Program-made: the position numbers and the translations under genes
Notes under the pieces: generated by a model
The model's database searches: none
What the model saw: the letters and a program-made list of their open reading frames with translations, nothing else
What the model was told of the DNA's origin: nothing
Shown: positions 7,538 to 31,795 of the stretch, piece after piece
How the letters are laid out: the number at the start of each line of letters is the position of its first letter
Numbering within the stretch: the stretch's first letter is position 1
From: Bacteroidales bacterium
GTDB lineage: Bacteria > Bacteroidota > Bacteroidia > Bacteroidales > UBA932
Direction: 5' to 3'
Length of the DNA: 64,000 nt
NCBI GenBank assembly: GCA_017625535.1
Contig: JAGAKR010000019.1
Coordinates: forward strand, 1 to 64,000

Positions 7538-7708
7538 AAAGGACAATCATTCCATGCTCAGGCCTGGAACCTGGCTGACAATCTATTGCATTTGAGCCGG
7601 ACTGAGGAACTCAGCAGCTGCGCTGCTTCAGACAGGCCTCAGTCTTGCGGCTCACCTGCAATGATTGTTTACGCCGTTTCCAGGATTCGCATGGCCCGAT
7701 TGTCCTTT
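7538..7708 (+). repeat. Structured repeat hairpin A1 (half of inverted pair A)
   Basis: A long branched hairpin. Outer helices are 7538-7548/7698-7708 (11 bp), ccatgc 7552-7557/7689-7694, and 7563-7569/7678-7684. The core runs from GGCTGACAATC (7573-7583) to GATTGTTTACGCC (7663-7675). Inner helices are attgca/tgcaat (7585-7590/7657-7662), tgagccg/cggctca (7593-7599/7648-7654), actgagg/cctcagt (7601-7607/7637-7643) and the apical agcagc/gctgct (7613-7618/7622-7627). The apical loop contains CAGACAG (7629-7635). The same architecture recurs in A2, B1 and B2. No reading frame is plausible here. The strand is that of the GGCTGR...TACGCC core. It could be an RNA, a bidirectional 3' end structure, or a non-autonomous mobile element. 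Confidence 0.8.
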
Positions 7709-7738
7709 ATATTTCCTTTCATAAACATATATCCATAC

Positions 7739-7950
7739 AGAAGACTAATACGGCTCTTTTAAGGAAAATGCGGGCACCTCTATTGCTCAGCGGCGTAAGC
7801 AATATGCAGTATGAGGCCTTAAGTTTCTGTCTGTTTGAGACAACTCTGTTGTCGAGTTAAGAAACAAGGCCTCATAATGTATAATTGCCAGCCATAGCTG
7901 AGCACTCTGAGGTGCCCGCATTGTTCCTGGTAAGAGAGTATTAGTCTTCT
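7739..7950 (-). repeat. Structured repeat hairpin A2 (inverted partner of A1)
   Basis: Mirror-oriented copy. Outer helices are 7739-7750/7939-7950 (12 bp perfect), 7767-7780/7909-7922 (14 bp perfect) and tgctcag/ctgagca (7784-7790/7898-7904). Read on the minus strand the core starts GGCTGGCAATT and ends ATTGCTTACGCC (7792-7893). Inner helices are 7811-7820/7866-7875 (10 bp perfect), gtttct/agaaac (7823-7828/7860-7865) and apical gacaac/gttgtc (7839-7844/7848-7853). The conserved apical word CAGACAG appears as ctgtctg at 7828-7834. The A1-A2 pair fills the 463-bp gap between convergent genes rarA and the CBM9-like lipoprotein, leaving about 30 bp between the hairpins. Confidence 0.8.
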
Positions 7951-7968
7951 ATCCGTTATATAGATAAA

Positions 7969-27061: not shown

Positions 27062-28792
27062 ATGGCAAACTTTTATAGAGATAATTCAGATTTGAAATTT
27101 CAGTTCAAGCACCCTTTGATGGGGAAGATTGTTGAACTGAAAGAGGATAATTTCAAGGATTTTGGCAAATATGATTATGCTCCTGCCAATGTTGAAGATG
27201 CAATAGACTCATACGACAGGGTAATGGAGATTATCGGTGAGATCTGCGGTGACGTACTTGCCCCTAACGCAGAGCAGGTAGACCACGACGGTCCTGTTTG
27301 TGCAAACGGCAGAATAACATACGCTGCAGGTACACAGCAGAACCACGATGCACTTACAAAGGCAGGTGTTTACGGCTTGAGCCTTCCAAGGGAGTACGGC
27401 GGATTGAACTTCAGTATGGTACCTTACGTTATGGCTGCTGAACTTGTTTCACGTGCAGATGCAGGTTTCGCAAATATCTGGGGCCTGCAGGACTGTGCCG
27501 AGACTATCCACGAGTTCGCATCAAAAGAGATAAAAGAGGAGTTCCTTCCAAGAATCAATAAAGGTGACACCTGTTCAATGGACCTTACAGAGCCTGATGC
27601 AGGTTCAGACCTTCAGTCAGTAATGCTCAAGGCAACTTGGGACGAGGAGAAACAGATGTGGTTCCTCAATGGTGTAAAACGTTTCATCACCAATGGTGAC
27701 GCTCAGATCAAACTTGTACTTGCCCGTTCAGAGGAGGGTACAACTGACGGCCGTGGCCTTTCATACTTTGTATATGACAAGGCTTGGGGCGGTGTAACAG
27801 TAAGGCGTATAGAGAACAAACTTGGTATCAAAGGCTCCCCTACTGCCGAACTTGTATTCAAGAATGCCCCTGCAAAACTTGTAGGTGACAGGAAACTTGG
27901 TCTCATCAAATATGTAATGTCATTGATGAACGGTGCAAGGCTTGGTGTTGGTGCCCAGTCTGTAGGTTTGTCTGAGGCTGCATACAGGGAGGCTTTGAAA
28001 TATGCCCACGAGCGTGTACAGTACAAGAAGGCAATCATCAATTTCCCTGCTGTATATGAGTTGTTGGCAGTAATGAAGGCTAAATTGCAGGCATCACGTG
28101 CAATCCTTTATGAAACAACAAGATTTGTTGACATTTACAAAGCATACAACGCAATTTCTGAAGAGAGGAAACTTACCCCAGAGGAGAGACAGGAGAACAA
28201 GAAATACAGCAAATATGCTGATATGTTCACTCCAGTGCTCAAGATGATGTCTTCTGAGTACGCAAACCAGAATGCGTATGATGCAATCCAGGTACACGGC
28301 GGTTCAGGTTTCATGAAAGAGTATCCTGTTGAGAGACTTTACAGGGATGCAAGAATCCTTACCATCTATGAGGGTACTTCACAGTTGCAGACTGTTGCAG
28401 CAATCAGATATGTTACCAACGGTTCATACCTTGCAAAAATCCGCGAGTATGAGGCAATGGAGTTCAAACCTGAGTATGCTGCACTTAAAGAGAAACTTGT
28501 TGCAATGACCGCACAGTACGAGCAGGCTTGCGAGATGGTTCAGGGCAAAGGTGAGGAGTACATAGATTTCCACGCAAGAAGACTTGTGGAGATGGCTGCC
28601 CACATCATTATGTCTTACCTTCTTATCATTGACGCACAGGTTGATGAGTCATTCGCAAGATCAGCAGAGGTTTACACAAACAAATCAGAGGCTTGGAACA
28701 ACGAGAGGGCTTCATACATTGCTGCCTTCAAACCAGAAGACCTTGCTGCATTCTCAGCAATCAAAGAAGAGTACGTAGCAGAAGAGAACTAA
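27062..28792 (+). CDS. Acyl-CoA dehydrogenase family protein, long form
   Basis: A 576-aa FAD enzyme, longer than the about 380-aa short-chain enzymes because of a C-terminal extension (about 430-576). Core motifs: CSMDLTEPDAGSDLQSV (FAD/substrate loop), a VHGGSGFMKEYPVERLYRDARILTIYEGTSQLQ-type region, in which the Glu of IYEGTS is the usual catalytic base position, and ARLGVGAQSVG. It probably oxidises or, in the reverse sense, reduces a short acyl/enoyl-CoA with EtfAB. In fermenters such an operon serves butyrate or amino-acid pathways. Chain length is not inferable here. Its stop is followed by a GTCGGGAAGA word (28795-28804) and a terminator hairpin. Confidence 0.92.
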   Translation: MANFYRDNSDLKFQFKHPLMGKIVELKEDNFKDFGKYDYAPANVEDAIDSYDRVMEIIGEICGDVLAPNAEQVDHDGPVCANGRITYAAGTQQNHDALTKAGVYGLSLPREYGGLNFSMVPYVMAAELVSRADAGFANIWGLQDCAETIHEFASKEIKEEFLPRINKGDTCSMDLTEPDAGSDLQSVMLKATWDEEKQMWFLNGVKRFITNGDAQIKLVLARSEEGTTDGRGLSYFVYDKAWGGVTVRRIENKLGIKGSPTAELVFKNAPAKLVGDRKLGLIKYVMSLMNGARLGVGAQSVGLSEAAYREALKYAHERVQYKKAIINFPAVYELLAVMKAKLQASRAILYETTRFVDIYKAYNAISEERKLTPEERQENKKYSKYADMFTPVLKMMSSEYANQNAYDAIQVHGGSGFMKEYPVERLYRDARILTIYEGTSQLQTVAAIRYVTNGSYLAKIREYEAMEFKPEYAALKEKLVAMTAQYEQACEMVQGKGEEYIDFHARRLVEMAAHIIMSYLLIIDAQVDESFARSAEVYTNKSEAWNNERASYIAAFKPEDLAAFSAIKEEYVAEEN

Positions 28793-28820
28793 TCTCTTCC
28801 CGACAGTATATAAACATTGC

Positions 28821-28850
28821 GAGGCTGGCCCATAAGGTCAGCCTCTATTG
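28821..28850 (+). terminator. Terminator of etf-acyl-CoA dehydrogenase operon
   Basis: gaggctg (28821-28827) pairs with cagcctc (28839-28845), extended by gcc/ggt pairs, and is followed by a T-rich stretch (tattgtatttacccctttt). It is 28 bp after the stop codon. Confidence 0.7.
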
Positions 28851-28899
28851 TATTTACCCCTTTTATATTTTCAACTTTACCTCCCTTTCACTGCAAAGT

Positions 28900-29065
28900 T
28901 CCACAAAATGGCCTTCGGTTTGGCTGGCAATCCATTACATCTGTGCCGTATTTCCTGACTCACAGATGCCCCAGCTTTTCTACAAAGAGGCATCTGCTCA
29001 AACAGACGGAAATTTTACGGCACATCTGCAATGATTGCCTACGCCACCTCAGGATATTTTGTGGA
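28900..29065 (+). repeat. Structured repeat hairpin B1 (half of inverted pair B)
   Basis: Outer helix tccacaaaat/attttgtgga (28900-28909/29056-29065). The core runs from GGCTGGCAATC (28922-28932) to GATTGCCTACGCC (29033-29045). Inner helices are tgtgccgta/tacggcaca (28942-28950/29016-29024), tttcc/ggaaa (28951-28955/29008-29012) and apical cagatgcc/ggcatctg (28963-28970/28989-28996). The conserved apical words are GACTCA (28958-28963) and CAGACGG (29003-29009). Compared with A1 the helices have entirely different sequence but remain paired, while the basal and apical loop words are kept. That is the covariation expected of a selected structure. Confidence 0.82.
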
Positions 29066-29088
29066 CATTGCTGTTCCAGGATCATATA

Positions 29089-29258
29089 CAGGAGAAAATG
29101 TCTCTATGTGAATCCTGGAACGGCGTAAGCAATCATTCTGGGTGAGCCGGCCGGTTCAGGCCTGTCTGAACAACAAAGTTGTGAGTTCCTGAACCAGGCT
29201 CAACCAGGATAGATTGCCAGCCAGGTGGAAGGCTGAACATAGAGATATTTTTCTCCTG
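29089..29258 (-). repeat. Structured repeat hairpin B2 (inverted partner of B1)
   Basis: Outer helices are 29089-29098/29249-29258 (10 bp) and tctctatg/catagaga (29101-29108/29238-29245). On the minus strand the core starts GGCTGGCAATC and ends GATTGCTTACGCC (29122-29222). Inner helices are tgagcc/ggctca, ggttcagg/cctgaacc (29153-29160/29188-29195) and apical acaac/gttgt (29170-29174/29178-29182). CAGACAGG appears as cctgtctg at 29161-29168. The flank GAATCCTGGAA before GGCGTAA (29110-29127) is nearly the same as the reverse complement of the A1 3' flank. Also ttccaggat (29074-29082) pairs with atcctggaa (29112-29120). The pair lies between the convergent acyl-CoA dehydrogenase and copA genes. 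Confidence 0.82.
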
Positions 29259-29289
29259 ATAAAAAAGTAGTGTATAAGAATTTATATGA

Positions 29290-29490
29290 TTACAGCACCT
29301 TGTAACCTTCTTCCTCTACTGCGGCTTTAAGTGTCTCGTCTGAAACCTCGGCAGAAAGGGTTACAACTGCTGTGCCTTGTTTGAAGTCAGGAACAGCCTC
29401 TTCAACGCCTGGCAGTGCCTCAAGGGCTTTCTTTACGTGTCTTTCACAGTTGGGGCACATCATCCCCTCAATTCTCATTGTCTTTTTCAT
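29290..29490 (-). other. Possible internally initiated CopZ-like reading frame inside copA
   Basis: The ATG at 29488-29490 is in frame with copA and starts a 66-aa complete HMA domain (GMMCPNC). Eight nucleotides upstream lies GGAGG (minus strand gtggaggaaaagatt before ATG), an ideal Shine-Dalgarno spacing in a genome where such sites are rare. Free CopZ made from the 3' part of copA is inference. Bacteroidota ribosomes are known to rely little on such sequences. Confidence 0.4.
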
Positions 29491-31776
29491 AATCTTTTCC
29501 TCCACTATTGTTGTTTTATCAATAATATCATTATTCTCCTTTATCTTAATGAAGTTCAGCCTCAATGCATTCATAACAACACAGAAACTTGAAATGCTCA
29601 TAGCGGCGGCGCAGAACATAGGATTGATGCTCCAACCCATCAGCGGCTCAAAAACCCCTGCAGCAAGGGGGATTCCAATGATGTTGTAACTGAATGCCCA
29701 GAACAGGTTCTGGTGTATATTCCGCAATGTACCGCGGCTCAGTTTTATTGCAGCAGGCACATCGGCCAGGGAACTCTTTACCAGCACCACATCTGCCGAA
29801 TCAATTGCAATGTCCGTACCTGCACCTATTGCAATACCCACATCTGCCCGGGCCAACGCAGGGGCATCATTTATTCCGTCCCCAACCATTGCTGTAAGGC
29901 CGTTCTGCTGCAGTTCCCTTACAATATGTCCTTTTTTGTCGGGAAGAATACCTGCAAAAATTCTCTTTATACCGGTCTTCTTTCCAACTGCTTCTGCTGT
30001 ACCCCTATTGTCTCCGGTAACCAGGGCAACCTCAATTCCCATTCTGCCAAGTTCCTCCACCGCAGAGGCACTCTCCTCCCTAATCGTATCTGCAACTGCC
30101 ACAATTCCAATGAATTTCCCATCCAAAGCAAATGCCATTGGGGTCTTCCCCTGCTGGGCAAGTTCATCTCCCTTGGCAGCCGCAGCGGGCGGAATGATTC
30201 CCTCCATATATTTCAAACTTCCTCCCGACAGTTTCTTCCCGTCCAGTACGCCGCACAACCCGTTCCCCGGGAAAATCTGGAACTGGGAAACAGGTGAAAT
30301 CTCCACACCCTGTTTCTCAGATGCCTCTACAATGGCCTTTCCAAGGGGATGCTCGCTCTGTTTTTCCAGTGAACCGGCATATTTGAGCAACTCAACTGCT
30401 GTAACCCCCTCTGCAGGGAGAATGTCAGTTACAGAAGGGTGTCCGCTGGTAACTGTACCGGTCTTGTCCAGTGCCACATATTTCACTTTGCCTGTAATCT
30501 CCAGCGAAGTGGCATTCTTGAAAAGGATACCGTTGCGGGCCCCGATGCCGGTTCCAACCATTATGGCAACCGGAGTTGCAAGTCCAAGAGCGCAAGGGCA
30601 ACTGATTACCAGAACAGAGATACCTCTCTCCAGCGCATATCCCAGTTCTGCCCCTGCAAGCATCCATACCACAAAAGTAATTGCAGCAATTGCAATGATT
30701 CCAGGGACAAAAACTGCAGATACTTTGTCTGCAACCTTTGCAATTGGGGCTTTGGAAGCAGAAGCATCGCTCACCATCTGTATGATTTTGGAAAGGAGGG
30801 TCTCTTCCCCTACCCTTGCAGCCTCGCATTTAAGGGCGCCGTGGAGATTGATTGTCCCTTGCGACACATTCTCTCCAACACTTTTCTCTACAGGGATGCT
30901 CTCTCCGGTAAGTACCGATTCATTTACAGAACTGAATCCCTCCACAACCTTGCCGTCTGCAGGCATTGTTTCTCCGGGGCGGACAATGAACACATCCCCC
31001 ACCTTTATCTCTTCTACAGGTACAGTAACCTCTTTTCCGTCTCTTATAACCGTTGCATTCTTAGGTGATAGTTTTACCAGTGCCTCCAGAGCATCTGTAG
31101 TTTTCCCTTTGGCCTTTGCCTCAAGCAGTTTTCCCACAGAGATAAGGGTAAGCACCATAGCGGCAGACTCAAAATAGAGGCTGTGCAGCAGATGCATTGC
31201 CTCATCCTGCTTCCCTGTGATTATCTCCCCAGACATCTTCATAAGGAGGAATGTGCTGTACACAAATGCAGTTGCAGAGCCAAGCGAAACCAACGTATCC
31301 ATATTTGGTTTCCTGTTCACCAGCCCCTTGAATCCGCTTATGAAGAACCTCTGGTTCACAACCATAATGGCTGCAGCCAGAATCATCTCCACAATTGCAG
31401 TTGCCACAGGATTTGCCGCAAAGAACTGCGGCAGCGGGAACCCCCACATAACAGCACCCATTGTAATATACATCAGGCCCATCAAAAGGACCACAGAAAC
31501 GGCAAGCCTCCCCGCACCACTCTCATTATCTTTATTTGCCTTCTTCTCTGATTGCTCCTTCTTCCTTCCGGCTCCCTCTGCCACCGACGCCCCATACCCT
31601 GCCTTCTCAACCGCCCCTATCACCACCTGAGGCTCCACATCCCCCTCCACAACCATTGAATTAGCCAGCAGATTCACACTGCATCCCTTAACCCCCTCCA
31701 CTCCCGAAACCGCCTTCTCCACCCTTGTGCTGCACGCCGCACAACTCATTCCAGTAACATTATATCTCGTTGTCAT
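29290..31776 (-). CDS. copA: Copper-exporting P1B-type ATPase with fused C-terminal CopZ-like domain
   Basis: 828 aa. An N-terminal heavy-metal-associated domain (TGMSCAACSTRVEK, CxxC about 12-15) is followed by eight membrane helices and an actuator with TGES. The transport motif SCPCALGLATPVA (CPC) is typical of Cu+ ATPases. The phosphorylation site is DKTGTVTSG and the hinge GDGINDAPALARAD. After the last helix a short linker leads into a second, complete HMA domain (66 residues from MKKTMRIEGMMCPNCERHV) that looks like a stand-alone CopZ chaperone. The start at 31776 (MTTRYNV) is preferred over 31785 because a -7 box at 31796-31803 would leave almost no leader for the latter. Cu+ export is firmly predicted. 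Confidence 0.93.
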   Translation of the reverse strand: MTTRYNVTGMSCAACSTRVEKAVSGVEGVKGCSVNLLANSMVVEGDVEPQVVIGAVEKAGYGASVAEGAGRKKEQSEKKANKDNESGAGRLAVSVVLLMGLMYITMGAVMWGFPLPQFFAANPVATAIVEMILAAAIMVVNQRFFISGFKGLVNRKPNMDTLVSLGSATAFVYSTFLLMKMSGEIITGKQDEAMHLLHSLYFESAAMVLTLISVGKLLEAKAKGKTTDALEALVKLSPKNATVIRDGKEVTVPVEEIKVGDVFIVRPGETMPADGKVVEGFSSVNESVLTGESIPVEKSVGENVSQGTINLHGALKCEAARVGEETLLSKIIQMVSDASASKAPIAKVADKVSAVFVPGIIAIAAITFVVWMLAGAELGYALERGISVLVISCPCALGLATPVAIMVGTGIGARNGILFKNATSLEITGKVKYVALDKTGTVTSGHPSVTDILPAEGVTAVELLKYAGSLEKQSEHPLGKAIVEASEKQGVEISPVSQFQIFPGNGLCGVLDGKKLSGGSLKYMEGIIPPAAAAKGDELAQQGKTPMAFALDGKFIGIVAVADTIREESASAVEELGRMGIEVALVTGDNRGTAEAVGKKTGIKRIFAGILPDKKGHIVRELQQNGLTAMVGDGINDAPALARADVGIAIGAGTDIAIDSADVVLVKSSLADVPAAIKLSRGTLRNIHQNLFWAFSYNIIGIPLAAGVFEPLMGWSINPMFCAAAMSISSFCVVMNALRLNFIKIKENNDIIDKTTIVEEKIMKKTMRIEGMMCPNCERHVKKALEALPGVEEAVPDFKQGTAVVTLSAEVSDETLKAAVEEEGYKVL

Positions 31777-31795
31777 ACCTCTCATAATTTCATAA

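Follow-up and report, generated by a model that had tools for sequence, protein, structure and literature searches.

Inverted intergenic hairpin pairs with covarying stems and nearly fixed loop words in Bacteroidales, candidate non-autonomous mobile DNA

Folded single strands are recognized by the enzymes of the IS608, REP/RAYT and attC systems. The attC sites serve recombination in the form of a folded single strand; their stems vary, few of their bases are fixed, and 5' RYYYAAC and 3' GTTRRRY arms lie at the hairpin foot. According to the available parts of the respective reports (PMC2229807, PMC2267715), the YPAL or RU-2 elements of Yersinia are intergenic, 168 bp in length and fold into a long stem-loop; they have filled and empty sites, and their targets lie in or beside dyad symmetry. 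The CIR repeats of Caulobacter and Brucella, as outlined in the accessible text of PMC2229807, consist of two long stem-loop arms joined by a linker, are intergenic and expose a GANTC motif. The length of REP sequences is given as 20-40 bp in a portion of PMC3733652, and an excerpt of PMC6006769 attributes 'atypical secondary structures', with copies elsewhere in the genome, to RAYT subclass 2.6 of Bacteroidetes. As far as these excerpts go, YPAL/RU-2 and, in two-armed form, CIR represent a known kind of element, the long intergenic palindrome that has both filled and empty sites. The Bacteroidales and Bacteroidetes literature available in excerpt, including PMC2864571, covers REP sequences, MITEs and structured RNAs and offers no recognizable description of the hairpin family reported here.

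The window, that is, the whole stretch of 64,000 nucleotides that was analyzed, lies on contig C13 of a 2.18-Mb Bacteroidales draft genome of 31 contigs (G000, hereafter the own genome); the carriers among its relatives are Bacteroidales MAGs. It contains two inverted hairpin pairs. Pair B (B1 on the plus strand, B2 on the minus strand) spans positions 28890-29263, with an acyl-CoA dehydrogenase gene to the left (27062-28792, plus strand) and a heavy-metal P-type ATPase gene to the right (29290-31785, minus strand), whereas pair A (A1 plus, A2 minus; 7538-7962) sits between genes for an MgsA-type AAA ATPase and a CBM9-domain protein. Each hairpin forms a rod whose helices vary in sequence and are mostly Watson-Crick, with the nearly fixed unpaired apical words AACTC and TCARACA, to which the hairpin type denoted hp1 adds a fixed basal loop, TG / YTAC. 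The family occurs in two forms: short units comprise one hairpin, and in long forms of about 500 nt hp1 is followed by a spacer and by a second hairpin, hp2, which is inverted relative to hp1, with a terminal helix closing the whole. The features of the window are as follows, the bit scores being those of cmsearch with a covariance model (R1) built on 12 units of the own genome, and the outer ends of B1 and B2 being estimates from the fold:

7538-7708, plus strand: A1, hp1-type hairpin, core 7557-7692; detected as inverted repeat I4; 141.4 bits
7738-7962, minus strand: A2, diverged hairpin inverted relative to A1, core 7776-7910; detected by folding; 94.4 bits
28806-29287, no strand: stretch present in the window, with about 35 nt instead in the relative G024 (empty site)
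28821-28845, plus strand: terminator-like hairpin, 3' of the left acyl-CoA dehydrogenase gene and 5' of B1
28890-29071, plus strand: B1, short-type hairpin with a long apical arm, core 28906-29061; detected by folding; 107 bits
28922-28932, plus strand: B1 basal 5' word GGCTGGCAATC (GGC helix, TG loop, GCAATC helix)
28957-28962, plus strand: B1 unpaired conserved 5' word GACTCA
28997-29005, plus strand: B1 unpaired conserved 3' word CTCAAACAG
29033-29045, plus strand: B1 basal 3' word GATTGCCTACGCC (CTAC unpaired between GATTGC and GCC)
29078-29263, minus strand: B2, hp1-type hairpin inverted relative to B1, core 29106-29238; detected by folding; 139.6 bits
29122-29134, minus strand: B2 basal 3' word, GGCGTAAGCAATC on the plus strand
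29162-29170, minus strand: B2 word TTCAGACAG (CTGTCTGAA on the plus strand)
29183-29187, minus strand: B2 word AACTC (GAGTT on the plus strand)

Both regions fold far better than shuffled sequence, with z-scores for B of -9.2 (RNA, plus strand), -9.9 (RNA, minus strand) and -8.4 (DNA parameters) and for A of -14.3 (RNA, plus strand); none of 100 shuffles folded as well as the native sequence in any of the A and B tests. The four hairpins named in a preliminary description of this DNA, which was made from the sequence alone, are thus real, and the second-helix sequences quoted there are correct and paired. The extent given for pair B (28900-29258) was right as to location, the folds reaching slightly further. 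The unpaired words reported as fixed were retained in a looser form, (A/G)ACTC(A/G) on the 5' side and TCA(A/G)ACAG on the 3' side: for the supposed CAGACAG, B1 and A2 read CAAACAG, and for the basal GCAATC/GATTG, A1 reads ACAATC/GATTGT. B1 and B2 do not represent a single duplicated plan. Among the matches listed, B1 is closest to short units of other species and B2 to hp1 of the ~500-nt composites of the own genome, so that pair B is a short-type unit beside an hp1-type unit, the two being mutually inverted like A1/A2 and like a third inverted pair of the own genome, on contig C22 (L085). Pair A resembles the C22 pair (about 75% identity over 381 nt by blastn, among the matches listed); therefore, a pair can act as one unit.

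A blastn search of the B region against the own genome produced 23 matches, many of them overlapping or partial. Model R1 resolves 15 hp1-type units with unrelated flanks, including the inverted C22 pair, and there are six distinct hp2 hairpins, four further matches being the same places on the other strand. Four of the copies lie at contig ends, as two pairs with identical cores (L092 and L093; L086 and L087). Because recent repeats break assemblies, the true copy number is probably higher than 15.

We examined 14 of the long forms (composites), from four genomes (G000, G006, G007 and G024). In all 14, both hairpins were located and are inverted relative to each other, with a gap of 74-131 nt. 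Read on the opposite strand, hp2 follows the plan of hp1: AACTC and TCARACA flank an apical stem, and the base is TTACCGCC. Its core can be written AACTC..TTTTAG..CTAAC..TCRRACA. Cross-detection supports the kinship of hp1 and hp2, in that R1 recovers the distant hairpin L183 (E = 0.002) and the model of hp2, R2, touches one unit of hp1 (E = 0.03). Among the matches listed, composites at different loci share 92% identity over 500 nt in the own genome (L091 and L094) and 95% over 484 nt in G024 (L068 and L069), the lowest value among own composites being about 78%. The terminal helix also varies in a paired manner when copies are compared by eye. A MITE derived from a DDE transposon would have fixed terminal inverted repeats; several composites end in inverted repeats (of the CCTTCAATT/AATTGAAGG type, by eye) that differ between copies. 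The outer arms diverge so strongly that the element lacks the sharply defined ends of a classical transposon.

The element does not appear to be a coding one. Two TTG-start ORFs (113 and 103 aa) overlap B1, but the cores have no common open frame: 18 of the 43 cores are open in any frame and 13 in the best single frame. A word resembling a Shine-Dalgarno site in hp2 differs between families and was discarded for that reason. At L077:4117-5053, a gene lies between two hairpins in inverted orientation (4117, plus; 4984, minus), one of them full and the other without its apical part. It had been considered as a transposase and was rejected because it encodes a 128-aa fragment from the C-terminus of a type I restriction subunit (PF11867).

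The preliminary description had claimed helix covariation with conserved loops. In the alignment of the 12 units of the own genome, 94.5% of 453 helix cells pair, compared with 85.5% when shuffled and 23-43% when partners are slid, and 36 cells changed on both sides. The alignment of 49 rows was cleared of an antisense echo, a chance hit and a pair of deletion forms, and the collapse of identical rows then left 43 distinct units from ten genomes of the genus. In a version of 47 distinct rows from the ten genomes that still contains those four rows, and with the alignment fitted to the model, 93.7% of cells pair (80.1% when shuffled, 29-44% when slid), with 233 two-sided changes, 14 one-sided changes and 107 unpaired cells among 1710. 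The 43 units behave likewise: among 1631 helix cells, the pair-keeping changes are two-sided in 224 and one-sided in 12, 101 cells are unpaired, and 1518 are Watson-Crick, 12 G-T and 34 A-C, so that pairing is mostly kept in the additional genomic copies. We also applied our own version of the R-scape null, which is tree-based and relies on Fitch reconstruction, 60 simulated alignments and an independent MAFFT alignment. Four column pairs reached E < 0.05, all within the consensus helices and none elsewhere; specificity is good, and power, at four of 34 structure pairs, is low. The covariation claim is borne out by both the counts and this test. In an arm-swap test, own arms fold at a mean of -24.0 kcal/mol, compared with -9.3 kcal/mol with arms from unlike copies, and outdo every swapped partner in 64 of 74 copies, 10 units having been excluded for want of a match to a regular expression that demands the core words.

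The words ACTC, TCARACA and TACGCC are unpaired and nearly invariant in the units: the majority share is 0.95-1.0 in the ACTC, TCA, ACA and TACGCC columns and 0.74 and 0.77 at the A/G positions, compared with a mean of 0.82 in paired columns and 0.71 in the helix beside the apical loop. Stems that vary yet mostly stay paired, together with nearly fixed loops, suggest a partner that recognizes the folded strand. Template-switch correction of quasi-palindromes during replication could produce apparent covariation with no selection on structure, and the scarcity of intermediates among the changes is what hairpin-templated correction would give. Palindromes are known to break at direct repeats, and two derivatives, L077 and L084, lack the apical part, the break in L077 lying at CATCTG direct repeats. 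Such correction would, however, erase the mismatched loops, which are the most constant columns; the loop words persist even across families, where the contrast taken over the model columns as a whole is, however, modest (0.72 for unpaired and 0.63 for paired columns, six representatives). Because the loops are fixed, we regard correction as a very improbable explanation when taken by itself, and it may still act along with selection.

Conserved internal loops inside variable helices are also typical of structured RNAs, and the hp2 core is kept in several families. The hairpins could be transcribed, alone or at transcript ends, with the fixed loops binding protein or RNA and dispersal being by paralogous copies. 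Read on the opposite strand, the helices hold 34 G-U against 12 A-C cells, at 14 against 5 positions, a weak hint of RNA drawn from non-independent cells, and two sigma-70-like sites are present in 28700-29400 against 0.8 in shuffles. A Bacteroidales consensus promoter pattern occurred in none of 45 units with 0.2 expected, which is uninformative. On either strand, however, wobble accounts for at most about 2% of cells, and so little of it fits pairing selected in DNA better than pairing selected in RNA. Moreover, hp1 and hp2 lie on opposite strands in every composite, a terminator-like hairpin precedes B1, and at the gathering score Rfam 15 has no match in the window or in five composite loci, and its sole matches in the 12 loci from other families are two tRNAs; with a loose E-value, 28850-29300 yielded two weak plant or animal matches and nothing else. 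A function of the DNA strand is favored over one of RNA because a common reading frame is lacking, wobble is rare and hp1 and hp2 lie on opposite strands, and we consider the RNA explanation, the strongest of the alternatives, unlikely. If it were true, the hairpins would form a structured RNA class without a match in Rfam 15.

Both pairs had been noted to occupy convergent intergenic regions, and this position is favored by the element in the genus. Of 33 gaps with the element, 23 are convergent, 9 co-directional and 1 divergent, compared with 6, 30 and 19, respectively, of 55 gaps without it (convergent 23/33 against 6/55, p = 2e-8, the p-values being approximate because genes were called simply as longest ORFs and some loci, such as L065 and L066, are orthologous). 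Relatives from other families have nine convergent and nine co-directional loci, so that the bias is shown for the genus only. The suggestion that the position reflects a role at transcript ends finds no support at locus B, because a terminator-like hairpin of the left gene (28821-28845) precedes B1; a scan of 28700-29400, with 0.7 expected from shuffles, produced one further, weaker candidate, on the minus strand inside B1 (29008-28991). Insertion tolerance, the other suggestion, fits the position better. Near-identical terminator-like hairpins (GAGGGTGACCCAAAAGGTCACTCTC, by eye) flank the element at the unrelated loci L078, L096-L099 and L084, and similar ones are present at sites without it. 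The right flank of L090 and the region upstream of L190 seem, by eye, to contain other long hairpin-like repeats, and the genus may thus have more than one family of this kind.

Polymorphism for presence and absence is seen at locus B. In G024, the flanking genes are adjacent, with about 35 nt replacing 481 and a terminator-like hairpin between them; the right flank of this empty site is about 69% identical, and no target-site duplication is resolved there. The insertion L065/L066 is common to G024 and G007, and among the 10 genomes searched, G000, G006, G009 and G022 match the left gene just to its end, which falls short of full empty sites. Locus A was rejected as a second empty site, its flanking genes being non-adjacent in relatives that have both on one contig.

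The strong convergent bias also speaks for a function in the host chromosome, in which the hairpins, extruded or folded in DNA, would bind an architectural or repair protein or insulate convergent genes and be kept for that. One left gene, common to G022, G024 and G006, bears a hairpin element of differing type, and the binding of gyrase and IHF to BIMEs, described in the available part of PMC2267715, provides a precedent. Against this stand the 27 of 37 genus genomes that lack hp1 and the empty site at locus B, and insertion tolerance predicts the same positional bias; we therefore consider a chromosomal function quite improbable.

We lean slightly toward reading the hairpins as solo or paired copies of a non-autonomous mobile DNA whose ends, in the form of folded single strands, would be read by a trans-acting enzyme; the evidence for the anatomy is strong, and the mechanism we infer. 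Mobility is indicated by dispersed copies, unrelated flanks, patchy spread, identical cores at separate contig ends and the empty B site. One DNA strand would fold, for example on the lagging strand, and expose the unpaired words; a putative enzyme supplied in trans would recognize these words and mobilize the element. Under this scheme, the DNA fold and the loop words would be under selection, and the stems could drift freely in sequence as long as their arms stayed matched. Copies collect 3' of genes, for the most part in convergent gaps, presumably because insertion is tolerated there. Bacterial intergenic repeats are usually recognized by conserved sequence, whereas here the fold and a few loop words persist and the stem sequence is free. 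If the mobile DNA reading is true, gut Bacteroidales have an undiscovered enzyme that reads folded single-stranded DNA; the hairpins are its natural substrates, and the loop words are a direct bait for it.

Like YPAL/RU-2, the element is a long hairpin present in many intergenic copies, with some sites filled and others empty. It differs in that loops and pairing are kept and the stem sequence is not, and in its inverted two-hairpin composites, its core shared across families and its lack of a common reading frame; no target-site duplication was seen here, whereas YPAL has variable ones in the passages at our disposal. With CIR it has in common a two-arm intergenic plan, but its fixed words are internal loops and its stems covary. 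REP, BIME and REPIN sequences are likewise extragenic imperfect palindromes found as inverted pairs, and hp1 has an unpaired YTAC (GTAR on the other strand) near its foot. A GT[AG]G foot was not found, however, the GTAR word (CTAC/TTAC on the unit strand) being unpaired but within a longer helix; the rods measure 100-200 nt, not 20-40 nt, and show no co-occurrence with RAYT genes and no hairpin at 12 RAYT-like loci. GTTRRRY- and RYYYAAC-like words occur here near the apex and, by inspection, in the reverse of the attC arm order; an identity as integron attC was rejected on this ground, and neither a cassette array nor an integrase was in evidence.

Within the genus, hp1 is present in 10 of 37 genomes, the own genome included, and in none of 24 genomes of other families. 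An exact hp1 pattern matched 37 stretches among the species genomes of GTDB r220, all from Bacteroidales MAGs (ten isolates), a count that may omit the window's own records; the RGIG records among them are ruminant hindgut samples, and three SIG records state no source. Of 39 genus genomes, model R2 matches 8, among them G036 weakly and over a short length, and R3, which models the hp2 core with distant members included, matches 7. In all, 12 of the 39 are carriers, or 13 if the weak G036 is counted. Over the order, R3 matches 6 of 295 genomes: the own genome, G112 and G216 (one family), G246, G290 and G269, the last by a single weak match (E = 1e-4). Among 395 genomes of the phylum, the own genome alone matches; such absences in the order and phylum sets are soft, because the filters were strict. 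In viral contigs, the hp1 pattern had no match, and the hp2 pattern matched seven contigs, none of them confirmed by R3.

The hp2 core is thus found in five sampled genomes from four other Bacteroidales families. They keep AACTC, TTTTAG, CTAAC and TCRRACA, some with single-base variants, on stems whose extremes are the GC-rich ones of G216 and the AT-rich ones of G290. Because the core recurs across families with very different stems, the similarity reflects more than recent duplication, as the preliminary description had argued; its observation is confirmed, and its interpretation overall is partly supported. Loop words kept across families could equally be contacts of RNA or of protein. We tentatively entertain, as a less than even prospect, that the core AACTC..TTTTAG..CTAAC..TCRRACA, present on very different stems in at least five families, marks a Bacteroidales system of single-strand hairpin recombination, or a structured RNA class no less new, with its own partner enzyme. 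The GC-rich relatives in G216 (L222:5612-9061, L223:4212-8736 and L224:5246-8877) number two to four per 3-5 kb, sit between accessory genes and are accompanied by partial copies; such clusters may mark a variable island. A cassette array was rejected for these clusters, whose neighbors are mixed (BACON, DUF4143 ATPase, ORF6N), and for the other genomes, where the neighbors are ordinary by eye.

The preliminary description had also pointed to a transposase or RAYT-like gene as a possible partner. Over 17 carriers, the RAYT profile NF047646 had no match above the curated cut-off, which may be strict for Bacteroidetes RAYTs; 12 carriers have some match at E <= 0.01, and G005, G012, G112, G216 and G246 have none. 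At E <= 0.001, PF01797 is absent from the carriers G005, G012, G017, G021 and G035 and present in many non-carriers, the drafts being 78-99% complete. Neither R1 nor R3 matched in the 38,901 bases of the 12 RAYT-like loci. A RAYT partner was therefore rejected: Y1/RAYT genes do not track the element, and no hairpins lie beside the RAYT-like genes of these 12 loci. The largest recurrent family among 399 neighboring ORFs covers six loci, and the 10 recurrent-neighbor proteins checked are products of ordinary genes (AMP-binding enzymes, methylmalonyl-CoA mutase, M16 and M28 peptidases).

Finally, the word TTCCCGACA is over-represented in this DNA, with 16 occurrences in the window against 0.3 expected (about a fifty-fold excess; for example, at 28797-28805 and 29937-29945) and 71 in 400 kb of genus loci plus the window. 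It is found on both strands, within genes as well as between them, and in this resembles a DNA-uptake or Chi-like word; a literature search for uptake words of the phylum turned up nothing relevant. In a search of 200 nt around the 14 composites, the word lies within 150 nt of eight (L066, L068, L069, L071, L072, L074, L086 and L088), and all nine of these adjoining words are oriented toward the element. By eye, it stands about 6-8 nt ahead of the terminal repeat at L065, L066, L072, L074 and L088. Its presence near the composite ends may reflect a target preference or just the habit of this word of following stop codons.
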